NCBI RefSeq assembly: GCF_947258925.1
Contig: NZ_CAMYKG010000027.1
Coordinates: 1-58,032 of the forward strand
Length of the DNA: 58,032 nucleotides
Direction: 5' to 3'
Source: an uncultured Eudoraea sp.
Lineage (GTDB): Bacteria; Bacteroidota; Bacteroidia; Flavobacteriales; Flavobacteriaceae
This document shows positions 2,034-5,499 of the stretch, one piece after another. Both the position numbers and the translations under genes were made by a program. Under the pieces are notes generated by a model. It worked only from the letters and a program-made list of their open reading frames with translations, was not told the DNA's origin and did not search any database. Positions within the stretch are counted from its first letter, which is position 1; the number at the start of each line of letters is the position of its first letter.

Positions 2034-4585
2034 AAATGCAAAAGGAAAAGATGTCTAATGCAACCACAGGCTGGCTATTTAAAATGGCCTGGCGGGATGG
2101 CAGGGCCAGTGGGGGAAGATTGATTTTGTTCATGGCTTCAATTATTCTCGGTATTACGGCACTGGTTTCAATTCAATCCTTTAGTGATAATCTGCAGGAA
2201 AATATTCGTCTGCAGTCCAAATTCCTGATGGGCGCAGATTTTATTATAGATTCAAGACAATTACCTAATGAAAGGGTTCAGGGAATTATGGATTCATTGG
2301 GCGGCGCCGAAGGAATGGAAGTCAATTTCGTATCCATGGCGTCATTCCCAGAAAGCAATGACAGTAAATTTGTACGCGTAAGGGGTGTTGAGGGTAGCTT
2401 TCCACTCTACGGGGAGTTGGAAACGGAACCTCAAAAAGCCGCAACAACCTATATCACCAAAAATGGGGCTTTGGTTGATGCTACCGTTATGTTGCAGTTC
2501 GATTTAGAAGTGGGCGATGTCATTAAAATTGGTGATACTACTTTACCTATTACCGGTATTCTTAAATCTGCACCTGGAAACAGTGGGTTGGCAAGTTCTG
2601 TAGCGCCGGCAGTTATTGTTCCTTATCAGATAATTGATCAGACAGGTCTTATTCAGGTTGGGAGCAGACTGGATTATAACTACTATTTTCGGGCACCAGA
2701 AGGGATGGATCTGGATATTCTCGATAAAGAACTCGACCCCATCCTGGATGCTGAAGGTGCTGATCTGGATACACATACATCAGGAAGCCGGCAATTGGGT
2801 AATTCATATGGTAATGTGGGCAAATTTCTTAATCTGGTGGCATTTATAGCTCTTTTATTAGGTTGTGTGGGTATAGCCAGTTCAGTCCAGATCTATATAA
2901 AAGAAAAATTAAGATCGGTGGCAGTACTCAAGTGTTTGGGAGCCAGCAGAAAGCAAACCTTCCTTATCTACTTGATCCAAATAGCCGGAATGGGATTGCT
3001 AGGAGGCCTCATAGGTACTTTGGCCGGTGTATTGCTGCAACTTACATTTCCTAGTCTGTTACAGGAATTTCTGCCTTTTGAGATACAATTGTCACTGGCT
3101 CCCCAACCCATTGTCATGGGTCTTTTACTGGGTGTCTTAATGTCTGTGCTCTTCGCGTTATTACCACTTATGAATACATGGTATGTTTCACCTTTACAAG
3201 TACTTCGCATTCAGGAAGCACCCGAGAAACGCCCGAAAAAGGCCAGGGCGCTTGTTCTTCTAGGAATATTGGTTTTTGTTTTCCTATTTTCACTTTGGCT
3301 ATTACAAGACTGGCGCTACGCCCTTGGTTTTGTAATCTGTATTGCAGTGACATTCTCCATATTGGCCGGGGTAGCTACATTGTTTATGAAAGGCATTAAA
3401 AGATTTTTTCCGTCCAATTGGGGATTTACCTCGAGGCAGAGTTTATTAAACCTTTTCCGTCCAAATAACCAGACCATGGTGTTATTGGTGGCCATAGGAG
3501 TTGGTGCTTTTTTAATCAGTACCCTTTATTTTACAAAAGACATGTTGGTAGCCATGGCGCAGCTTGAAAACGATGGGAACAGCCCAAATATAATTTTGTT
3601 GGATGTGCAAAGTGAACAAAAAGAAGCAGTTGCACAAAGCATAACCCCTAAAGGCTTACCTATCTTAGATAATATTCCGATAGTGACAATGCGTGTGCAT
3701 TCGATAAAAGGACGTGCCGCTAATGACCTAAGGCAAGATACCACGCTAACGATGAATAAATGGGTATTGAATCATGAATTCCGGGTTACATATAGGGATT
3801 CCATGATCTCTTCAGAGTCCCTTACTGAAGGTGAGTGGGTGTCTGAAACTCCAAAAGATGGCCTTATCCCGGTTTCCATTGCCGATAATATTGCCAGGGA
3901 TGCTGAAGTAGTAGTTGGAGATACGATTGTTTTTAATGTCCAGGGTGTGTTGATGGAGACGGTAGTGGGAAATACCCGCGCGGTAGACTGGGCACGAATG
4001 CAGCCTAACTTTAATATAGTCTTTCCCAAGGGCGTCCTGGAAAATGCTCCTCAGTTTAATGTAATTACAACGAATGCCCCCAATGCTAAAGCTTCTGCCG
4101 GACTTCAACGGGAATTGGTCCAAAAATTTCCTAACATTTCGGTCCTGGATTTGCGTCAAATAGTAACCCTTATTGAGAATATCCTTGATAAGATCGCCTG
4201 GGTGATCAACTTTATGGCCTTTTTTAGTATCCTAACCGGAATTATTGTGTTAATAGGGGCAGTACGTACCAGTAAATATCAGCGAATTAAAGAGAGTGTT
4301 CTTCTAAGGACTTTAGGGGCGAAAAGCAAGCAAATTATGCAAATTACGGCGCTGGAGTACTTTTATCTGGGCGTACTTGGAAGTGGTATTGGGATATTAC
4401 TTTCACTCATAAGCAGTCAGTTACTCGCCACTTTTGTATTTAAAACACCGTTTGTGCCCTCACCAGTGCCCTTTTTGGTCTTATTACCGGGAATAACATT
4501 ACTCGTTTTGCTAATTGGGCTTAGTAATAGCAGGAGTGTGCTAAACAGCCCCCCATTGGTAGTGCTTCGGAAGGAAGGAAGTTGA
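2030..4585 (+). CDS. ybbP: FtsX-like ABC permease (YbbP-like)
   Basis: 851 residues. One N-terminal membrane helix precedes a large periplasmic domain. Two FtsX-like blocks of three to four helices follow (near residues 265-420 and 715-850), with further helices between, around residues 405-500. This double-FtsX layout of about 800-850 residues is typical of YbbP rather than of single-block MacB or LolC/E. It is coupled to the ATPase gene by an ATGA overlap; ATG codons at 2036 and 2051 are alternative starts. The family is thought to extract or move lipophilic substrates with a partner esterase, which fits the divergent SGNH gene. The actual substrate is unknown. Confidence 0.9.
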   Translation: MKMQKEKMSNATTGWLFKMAWRDGRASGGRLILFMASIILGITALVSIQSFSDNLQENIRLQSKFLMGADFIIDSRQLPNERVQGIMDSLGGAEGMEVNFVSMASFPESNDSKFVRVRGVEGSFPLYGELETEPQKAATTYITKNGALVDATVMLQFDLEVGDVIKIGDTTLPITGILKSAPGNSGLASSVAPAVIVPYQIIDQTGLIQVGSRLDYNYYFRAPEGMDLDILDKELDPILDAEGADLDTHTSGSRQLGNSYGNVGKFLNLVAFIALLLGCVGIASSVQIYIKEKLRSVAVLKCLGASRKQTFLIYLIQIAGMGLLGGLIGTLAGVLLQLTFPSLLQEFLPFEIQLSLAPQPIVMGLLLGVLMSVLFALLPLMNTWYVSPLQVLRIQEAPEKRPKKARALVLLGILVFVFLFSLWLLQDWRYALGFVICIAVTFSILAGVATLFMKGIKRFFPSNWGFTSRQSLLNLFRPNNQTMVLLVAIGVGAFLISTLYFTKDMLVAMAQLENDGNSPNIILLDVQSEQKEAVAQSITPKGLPILDNIPIVTMRVHSIKGRAANDLRQDTTLTMNKWVLNHEFRVTYRDSMISSESLTEGEWVSETPKDGLIPVSIADNIARDAEVVVGDTIVFNVQGVLMETVVGNTRAVDWARMQPNFNIVFPKGVLENAPQFNVITTNAPNAKASAGLQRELVQKFPNISVLDLRQIVTLIENILDKIAWVINFMAFFSILTGIIVLIGAVRTSKYQRIKESVLLRTLGAKSKQIMQITALEYFYLGVLGSGIGILLSLISSQLLATFVFKTPFVPSPVPFLVLLPGITLLVLLIGLSNSRSVLNSPPLVVLRKEGS

Positions 4586-4612
4586 AGTAATGGCATTTCA
4601 AATTTTATGCTG

Positions 4613-4726
4613 GATTTCTCAATCGCTGCTTCGCAGTTCATGTCGAAATGACTTGGGTGGTTTTTAATAGTCCAGTTTAAGCTACAACAGTCATTTCGAA
4701 CCGAACGGAGTGAGTGTGAGAAATCT
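4613..4726. repeat. Palindromic repeat unit 1 (left arm, 37-nt spacer, right arm)
   Basis: The left arm (4613-4652, 40 nt) begins GATTTCTCA, holds the inner hairpin GCTGC-TTC-GCAGT and ends TCGAAATGAC. The right arm (4690-4726, 37 nt) begins GTCATTTCGA and ends TGAGAAATC(T), so the two arms are inverted copies at their outer and inner ends with different middles. The spacer is 37 nt and is diverged from the spacers of units 2 and 3. The unit lies directly downstream of the nuclease gene, whose stop codon begins two bases after the right arm. Confidence 0.9.
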
Positions 4727-4728
4727 CG

Positions 4729-5028
4729 TCAAATAACCTCTTGATTTATGAATTCCCATTTCGGATTAAAAGCATTTATTAGGTTTTCTTTCTTTTTTCT
4801 ACGCCACTTCTTAATTTCTTTTTCTCTAAGTATAGCGCTCTTCGGATCTTGGAAACCTTCATAGTATATTAGATAATAACAATTATATTTTCCGGCAAAA
4901 GACTTTTTTGAGTTTTGACTGTCAAAATAATGTTGTGATAGTCTTCTTTGGATATTATTGGTTATTCCGATGTAAATTGTGGTCCGGTTTGCATTAGTGG
5001 TTATATATACAAAGTAACGGTATAACAT
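4729..5028 (-). CDS. Small GIY-YIG nuclease (UPF0213/YhbQ-like) inside repeat cluster
   Basis: 99 residues from the ATG at 5028. The longer frame back to 5067 only translates the flanking repeat (MSCEAAIEKS) and is rejected. The paired strands FVYI and YIGIT form the GIY-YIG core near residues 6-21, an Arg follows in RRLSQH, and the metal-binding Glu candidate is in ILREKEIKKW. The basic C-terminal part is rich in Lys and Trp, as in stand-alone single-domain GIY-YIG proteins. The gene fills nearly the whole interval between repeat units 1 and 2, with its stop two bases from one arm and its start ten bases from the other. No separate promoter is visible, so transcription may start inside repeat unit 2 or 3. 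It is a candidate repeat-associated nuclease. Confidence 0.85.
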   Translation of the reverse strand: MLYRYFVYITTNANRTTIYIGITNNIQRRLSQHYFDSQNSKKSFAGKYNCYYLIYYEGFQDPKSAILREKEIKKWRRKKKENLINAFNPKWEFINQEVI

Positions 5029-5038
5029 TTCTTTATTA

Positions 5039-5152
5039 GATTTCTCAATCGCTGCTTCGCAGCTCATGTCGAAATGACTGGTGGGTTTTTAAATTGCCTA
5101 ACACTACCTATAACTGTCATTTCGAACCGAACGAAGTGAGTGTGAGAAATCT
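5039..5152. repeat. Palindromic repeat unit 2
   Basis: Left arm 5039-5078, 37-nt spacer 5079-5115, right arm 5116-5152, in the same orientation as unit 1. The left arm differs from that of unit 1 at one base (inner stem GCTGC-TTC-GCAGC is perfect here). The right arm reads AACGAAGTG where unit 1 reads AACGGAGTG. The spacer is nearly identical to that of unit 3. The unit lies ten bases upstream of the nuclease start codon. Confidence 0.9.
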
Positions 5153-5190
5153 CAATTTAGGTGTTTTCAATGACACTTACATGCAGTCTG

Positions 5191-5304
5191 GATTTCTCAA
5201 TCGCTGCTTCGCAGCTCATGTCGAAATGACTGGTGGGTTTCTAAATAGCCTAACACTACCTATAACTGTCATTTCGAACCGAACAGAGTGAGTGTGAGAA
5301 ATCT
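5191..5304. repeat. Palindromic repeat unit 3
   Basis: Left arm 5191-5230, spacer 5231-5267 (37 nt), right arm 5268-5304. The left arm is identical to that of unit 2, the spacer differs at only two of 37 positions, and the right arm reads AACAGAGTG. Unit 3 follows unit 2 after 38 nt, so arms and gaps alternate with a near-constant period of about 75 nt. The rest of the interval to 5499 shows no gene, repeat or clear hairpin. Confidence 0.9.
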
Positions 5305-5499
5305 TGTATTATCAATTTGGAATGCCCGCTAAAAAGCCCAAAATCCCGATTAAGGGTTTTATACCCCAAACCTATTCATCTGAGAATTTTATCACTTCAT
5401 CGTAAATTCTCCCACCTACCGAAAATAAGGGACTTTCGGCGATTATAACCCTAAATATTTCACTTTCTGTAGTTATTTTATTGTACCCAATCTTATAAC

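Follow-up and report, generated by a model that had tools for sequence, protein, structure and literature searches.

The window analysed here, a 58,032-nucleotide stretch from an uncultured Eudoraea sp., contains a small GIY-YIG nuclease gene set among repetitive extragenic palindromic (REP) units. We consider it likely, with a probability of roughly 0.63, that the nuclease recognises the adjacent REP hairpins by their stem and that cutting would drive the copying or upkeep of these REPIN-like units. The gene and its flanking units likely form a complete module (Table 1). The system works like REPIN/RAYT systems but is not a member of that group, because it has neither a Y1 transposase nor the GTAG head.

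Table 1. Features of the repeat and nuclease locus, by position in the window
Feature	Position	Strand	Description
Unit 1	4613..4726	.	Head-to-head REP dimer; left REP 4613-4652 minus, right REP 4690-4725 plus
GIY-YIG nuclease gene	4729..5028	minus	99 aa; PF01541, E 2.3e-17; fills the gap between units 1 and 2
Unit 2	5039..5152	.	Head-to-head REP dimer; left REP 5039-5078 minus, right REP 5116-5151 plus
Spacer, units 2/3	5153..5190	.	38 bp; by-eye reading
Unit 3	5191..5304	.	Head-to-head REP dimer; left REP 5191-5230 minus, right REP 5268-5303 plus

The three units are direct copies of 114 nt. Identity to the middle copy, which served as reference, is 84% for unit 1, 100% for unit 2 and 96% for unit 3, in agreement with the original prediction of three near-identical inverted-arm units in one orientation. 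Each is laid out as GATTTCTC...TCGAAATGAC, a spacer, and GTCATTTCGA...GAGAAATC, with the GTC heads of both REPs pointing inward. The window holds six copies of GTCATTTCGA, all inside the units, where shuffling expects 0.09 and reaches a maximum of 2. The head reads AGTC in four of the six REPs and TGTC in the other two, the outer stem is ATTTC/GAAAT, and the left REP has an additional inner hairpin. As single-stranded DNA, each unit folds more stably than its dinucleotide shuffles, with z −3.3 (unit 1), −4.1 (unit 2) and −3.5 (unit 3). Among 23 left REPs of the genus, 20 of them distinct, 98.5% of cells are paired compared with 91.2% in shuffles, and four of the five inner-hairpin pairs show changes on both sides compared with 1.8 in shuffles. 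Further pair types was the one of five covariation measures not clearly above shuffles; the outer stem is invariant across these REPs and so is uninformative on covariation. An Rfam search returned only a chance snoRNA match below the gathering score. By eye, a spacer resembling the one between units 2 and 3 also separates units on contig C69 of the same genome and in the sister species G008, and the nuclease gene stands where a spacer separates units elsewhere.

The gene stops 2 bases from unit 1 and starts 10 bases from unit 2, as had been predicted. The frame reported by the ORF finder is 112 aa long and begins within the repeat; we called the shorter gene because most listed relatives are 99 aa and start at the Met of MLYRYF. 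Protein queries ran from 4729 or 4732 to 5034 and therefore included two extra upstream codons. The open frame extends back into the unit 2 REP (window 5029-5067), so that translation from within the repeat would lengthen the protein by residues that the repeat encodes; in most relatives the start lies further downstream. The window protein is a predicted GIY-YIG nuclease with conserved Tyr, Tyr, Arg, Glu and Asn residues (Y10, Y21, R31, E71 and N90, in a numbering that counts the two extra residues), which are invariant across 37 sequences and which we take to be the catalytic residues of the domain. Its AlphaFold2 model has a mean pLDDT of 94.2. Foldseek with this model returned nothing at E <= 0.001; the top match was the UPF0213 protein 1zg2 (E 1.1e-3), followed by Slx1 (E 0.01) and UvrC (E 0.42), and I-TevI was also a weaker match. 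The profile matched no solved sequences other than those of UPF0213 proteins (PDB 1zg2, 1ywl), and 1zg2 is the best fold match. Unlike the window nuclease, same-genome paralogs that are UPF0213-like by sequence have a GTCA[TC] REP nearby in only 1/13 cases. Three of the remaining 12 (L236, L243 and L245) have hairpins of the GTCAGG...CCTCA type nearby, perhaps another REP type. With GIY-YIG homing endonucleases of the I-TevI type the window protein shares the nuclease domain and a mobile-gene logic; unlike them, it is little more than the nuclease domain at 99 aa and is flanked by REPs.

The pairing of gene and repeats recurs in relatives. A scan with a 25-sequence alignment gave 556 loci, of which the best 80, mostly Bacteroidota by record title, are referred to below as named relatives. 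A strict rule placed a REP within 250 bp of the gene in 67/80 named relatives and on both sides in 53/80, at a density of 6.1 per kb within 250 bp versus 0.25 per kb beyond 600 bp; 0.06% of shuffled loci had such a REP. When any A[TC]NNN stem was allowed behind the GTC head, a REP lay within 300 bp in 74/80, so the expected recurrence of GIY-YIG genes beside such repeats in Bacteroidota holds among these best 80 of 556 loci. The same rule found REPs near all 20 window-type genes of family genomes (some identical to named relatives), near 14/20 more distant GIY-YIG genes and near 10/11 plasmid-collection loci. In the controls, REPs lay near 1/13 UPF0213-like paralogs, 0/16 other small GIY-YIG genes from nine exception genomes that bear REPs, 1/30 Y1 transposase loci fetched (of 40 listed) and 92/1099 random spots at least 1 kb away. 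An earlier rule, which called for three pyrimidines after GTCAT, had found REPs at 3/20 of the distant GIY-YIG genes, a count that rose to 14/20 once other stems were allowed. Five distant genes (L177, L183, L188, L189 and L192) adjoin hairpins such as ATTTCCGC...GCGGAAAT that lack the GTC head. In a Candidatus Dadabacteria MAG (L076), window-like REPs adjoin a GIY-YIG gene, through either transfer or contamination.

REP type follows the nuclease, each branch mostly adjoining its own REP version in the relatives examined. Four classes defined by stem end labelled 150 of 202 nuclease genes. On a FastTree tree of these short proteins, whose support values were not used, the labels change 25 times, compared with a mean of 67.2 and a minimum of 61 in 300 shuffles. 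Stems beside distant paralogs include ATTGC/GCAAT, ATGCT/AGCAT, ACCCT/AGGGT and ATTCC/GGAAT. To control for host effects, we took 13 genomes having paralogs at different REP types, with 35 genes between them. The nearest nuclease in another genome shares the REP type for 29/35 genes and disagrees for 6/35; shuffling types within genomes 2000 times gave a mean of 12.7 and a maximum of 25.

Genome-wide counts extend this pairing beyond the immediate neighbourhood of the gene. We sampled 299 evenly drawn family genomes, at least 90% complete, with a window-like REP pattern (GTCATYYCGA...GRRATC) that accepts stems ending in TC as well as in CC. A nuclease match at 1e-10 was present in 174/299 and at least one window-like REP in 194/299, and the dispersed solo units that were to be looked for are indeed found. 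The median was 15 REPs in the 22 genomes with a best E < 1e-40, none of them REP-free, and 9, 2 and 1 in the three weaker match classes. In the 125 genomes without a nuclease match it was 0, and 72 of these were REP-free. A reversed control pattern never reached 5 in any genome. The GC-clade nuclease and its GC-type REP were searched in the same genomes as a second type. Medians of window-like and GC-type REPs were 15 and 0 with the window clade only (17 genomes), 2 and 10 with the GC clade only (21 genomes), 10 and 14 with both (5 genomes), and 1 and 0 with neither (256 genomes). The Mann-Whitney p values for window-only versus GC-only genomes are 4e-6 and 4e-3, but they should not be read literally, given the relatedness of the genomes and the choice of cut-offs (1e-40 and 1e-28) once the E-values were known. 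The counts of the two REP types each track their own nuclease clade.

These counts bear on another explanation, which we consider unlikely: the nuclease gene could be a homing-like passenger that prefers or tolerates REP-rich intergenic sites, with the REPs as its landing pad and spread by other means. GIY-YIG homing enzymes exist, according to the available portion of PMC1564403, and some genomes have REPs but no matching nuclease. However, a passenger alone does not predict that genome-wide REP counts track the cognate clade, nor that paralogs in one genome sit at different REP types.

The two partners are also found apart. Units in relatives lacking the nuclease family were named at the outset as an outcome that would speak against a link, and this came about in part: 17/299 genomes have at least five window-like REPs and no match at E <= 1e-10, but all 17 have some PF01541. 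In eight of them the PF01541 matches are only long-frame (UvrC and others) or weak; in the other nine, 16 small GIY-YIG loci were scored and none was flanked by such REPs. REPs do occur without a detected cognate gene, as follows from these 17 genomes together with three further sets. Among the 53 genomes with at least ten window-like REPs, 15 have a nuclease match < 1e-40, 14 one at 1e-40 to 1e-23, 16 a more distant one and 8 none; a quarter of the 256 neither-clade genomes still have at least five window-like REPs; and three genomes have at least ten GC-type REPs and no match in either nuclease search. At least five GC-type REPs are present in 29% of the 17 window-clade-only genomes. One genome (G089) has 73 REPs and GIY-YIG matches that are only long-frame or weak, and another (G120), with 81 REPs, has an internal stop in its nuclease frame. 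Eleven genomes have a nuclease match < 1e-23 yet at most two window-like REPs. Gene loss, draft gaps or another mover could account for REPs without a detected cognate gene.

In the window's own genome, blastn with the unit gave 11 matches at three places: one is the window, and at the other two, on contigs C68 and C69, the matches run up to a contig end; this genome has one close nuclease gene and one distant match. Among ten genomes of the genus, an ortholog of the window nuclease is present only in G000 and G008. These have 15 strict REPs each, and the other eight, several of them incomplete, have 9, 7, 4, 3, 2, 1, 0 and 0. The window site lies downstream of an FtsX gene and is readable in seven genomes. 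It is without any unit in G002, holds one solo REP in G004, and has two units without the gene in G009. Units run to the contig end in G005 and into a run of N in G001. The gene is flanked by two arrays with a period of 150-151 bp in G008 and stands amid three units in G000. Orthologous sites without the insertion, which the original prediction had called for, thus exist in the genus, as they do in Shinella (see below).

The parallel with REPIN/RAYT systems (REPtrons) is close in anatomy. Both have short palindrome dimers, dispersed solo copies and an enzyme gene flanked by its own REPs, and in both the enzyme clade is matched to the REP type, with exceptions here of 6/80 for the flank and 6/35 for the type. 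The suggestion that a nuclease takes the RAYT's place in a REPIN-like arrangement is borne out, as REPs flank a gene that matches PF01541 and not Y1. Unlike a RAYT, the window enzyme is not a Y1/HUH tyrosine transposase, and all six window REPs have the head GTC rather than GTAG. It is very improbable that a RAYT elsewhere in the genome moves the units and that the GIY-YIG link is incidental. A Y1_Tnp match is present in 11/23 genomes with a window-type nuclease, the own genome having a single weak one (E 2.6e-7). Against this, 12/23 have none at 1e-5, including G008 with its 15 REPs, such a REP lies within 300 bp of just one of the 30 Y1 loci, and the head is again not that of RAYT-associated repeats. 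On the first two of these grounds we rejected a RAYT as the mover in our main reading.

Repeat arrays change by whole units. Those of sister species differ by about 117 bp in L035/L036 and by 354 bp, about three units, in L019/L020, changes that recombination alone could achieve. Neighbouring REP pairs in the named loci are head-to-head in 74 cases, tail-to-tail in 88 and head-to-tail in 51. In L038 the nuclease itself is duplicated together with its REPs. Several neighbouring copies are also found at places in G227, G155 and G196, and nuclease copy number varies within arrays as well. Stepwise arrays, and weak structural neighbours such as the UPF0213 protein, the structure-specific Slx1 and UvrC, would suit a nuclease whose cutting of REPs serves to limit or process these repeats, for instance in cruciform resolution or repair, the pairing then reflecting maintenance and not mobilisation. 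We regard this as rather improbable, since REPs are more numerous where the nuclease is present and solo units are dispersed. Under the reading we prefer, we infer that the nuclease mobilises the units. It would recognise its cognate REP hairpin through the stem sequence and cut REP DNA, the probable substrate being one strand of a hairpin that is extruded or single-stranded. The moving unit would be the head-to-head dimer, and host repair or replication would finish the copy; tandem array growth may be due to ordinary recombination between units.

Outside the Bacteroidota, the same gene family meets a known repeat class. According to the accessible text of a 2013 survey (Di Nocera 2013, PMC3733652), CGTC REPs occur in five phyla and include dRS3 of Neisseria and RPE-4/RPE-6 of Rickettsia. 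They are defined there by a CGTC, TGTC or CCTC head, an AT-starting stem of 8-9 bp, a loop of 4-5 nt and a CCA tail; that text associates no transposase genes with them and leaves their mover, if any, open. A tblastn search with the window protein gave 18 plasmid-collection records, of which 11 loci were read, nine of them proteobacterial. Strict CGTC REPs, with one stem mismatch allowed, lie within 300 bp in 8/9 proteobacterial loci, and in 8/11 overall. A Sphingobium locus (L216) has a variant stem beside the GIY-YIG gene, and the Planktothrix and Spirosoma loci have other GTC-headed REPs. We counted 18 strict REPs in 6.6 kb near the genes, 4 in 17.6 kb far from them and 3 in 150 kb of Sinorhizobium replicons. 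The window REPs differ from CGTC REPs in that their outer stem is shorter, the CCA tail is missing and the left REP contains an extra inner hairpin. Neither window 4501-5400 nor the 300 bp around the gene in any of the 80 named relatives yielded a match to the strict definition. In the Bacteroidota arrays here, tail-to-tail pairs are common, although the accessible survey text describes them as rare. On a Planktothrix plasmid (L219), an MmeI-type restriction gene and DISARM drmA flank the GIY-YIG gene with its REPs.

Shinella offers a comparison of occupied and unoccupied sites. WSC3-e, WSD5-1 and HZN7 carry the gene between amidohydrolase and carbon-nitrogen hydrolase genes, and REP pairs flank it on both sides. 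We fetched 10 of 12 listed relatives without the gene, and none of the ten has a strict REP between those two genes. Five of them share the same long intergenic stretch, and in an alignment with one of these five, 679 bp of WSC3-e are found opposite 114 bp. The whole module is thus missing from the orthologous site in these relatives, which fits gain or loss alike. That the REPs are absent along with the gene also sits poorly with the gene being a passenger among REPs spread by other means. The flanks are too diverged for the insertion ends in WSC3-e, or any target duplication, to be read. A strain-level comparison of S. meliloti/S. medicae megareplicons found 2, 1 and 0 strict REPs in three 50-kb stretches, too sparse for an insertion test; the single REP at a site common to the three stretches showed no polymorphism there. 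The analysis as a whole showed no movement, cut site, target duplication or new insertion, and the Sinorhizobium stretches gave no information on this point.

On a broader scale, the balance tips slightly towards small GIY-YIG nucleases being the missing enzymes of the CGTC REP superfamily. They would form a second REPIN system that works without a transposase, each clade reading and spreading its own REP stem, in Bacteroidota, Proteobacteria and cyanobacteria. A literature search, with bioRxiv preprints outside its scope, found no paper containing both 'GIY-YIG' and 'repetitive extragenic palindromic', and no title among the matches listed makes a GIY-YIG-REP link. By text search, the terms nuclease and RAYT are absent from the RepRanger paper, and the term palindrom is absent from the searchable portion of the GIY-YIG superfamily paper. 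For a large REP class that lacked a dedicated transposase in the accessible text of the 2013 survey (PMC3733652), the enzyme is a likely means of spread or maintenance, and a clade-matched enzyme candidate makes the question of the CGTC REP mover raised there directly testable in vitro. If our reading is true, this would be a REP system needing neither an HUH nor a DDE transposase.
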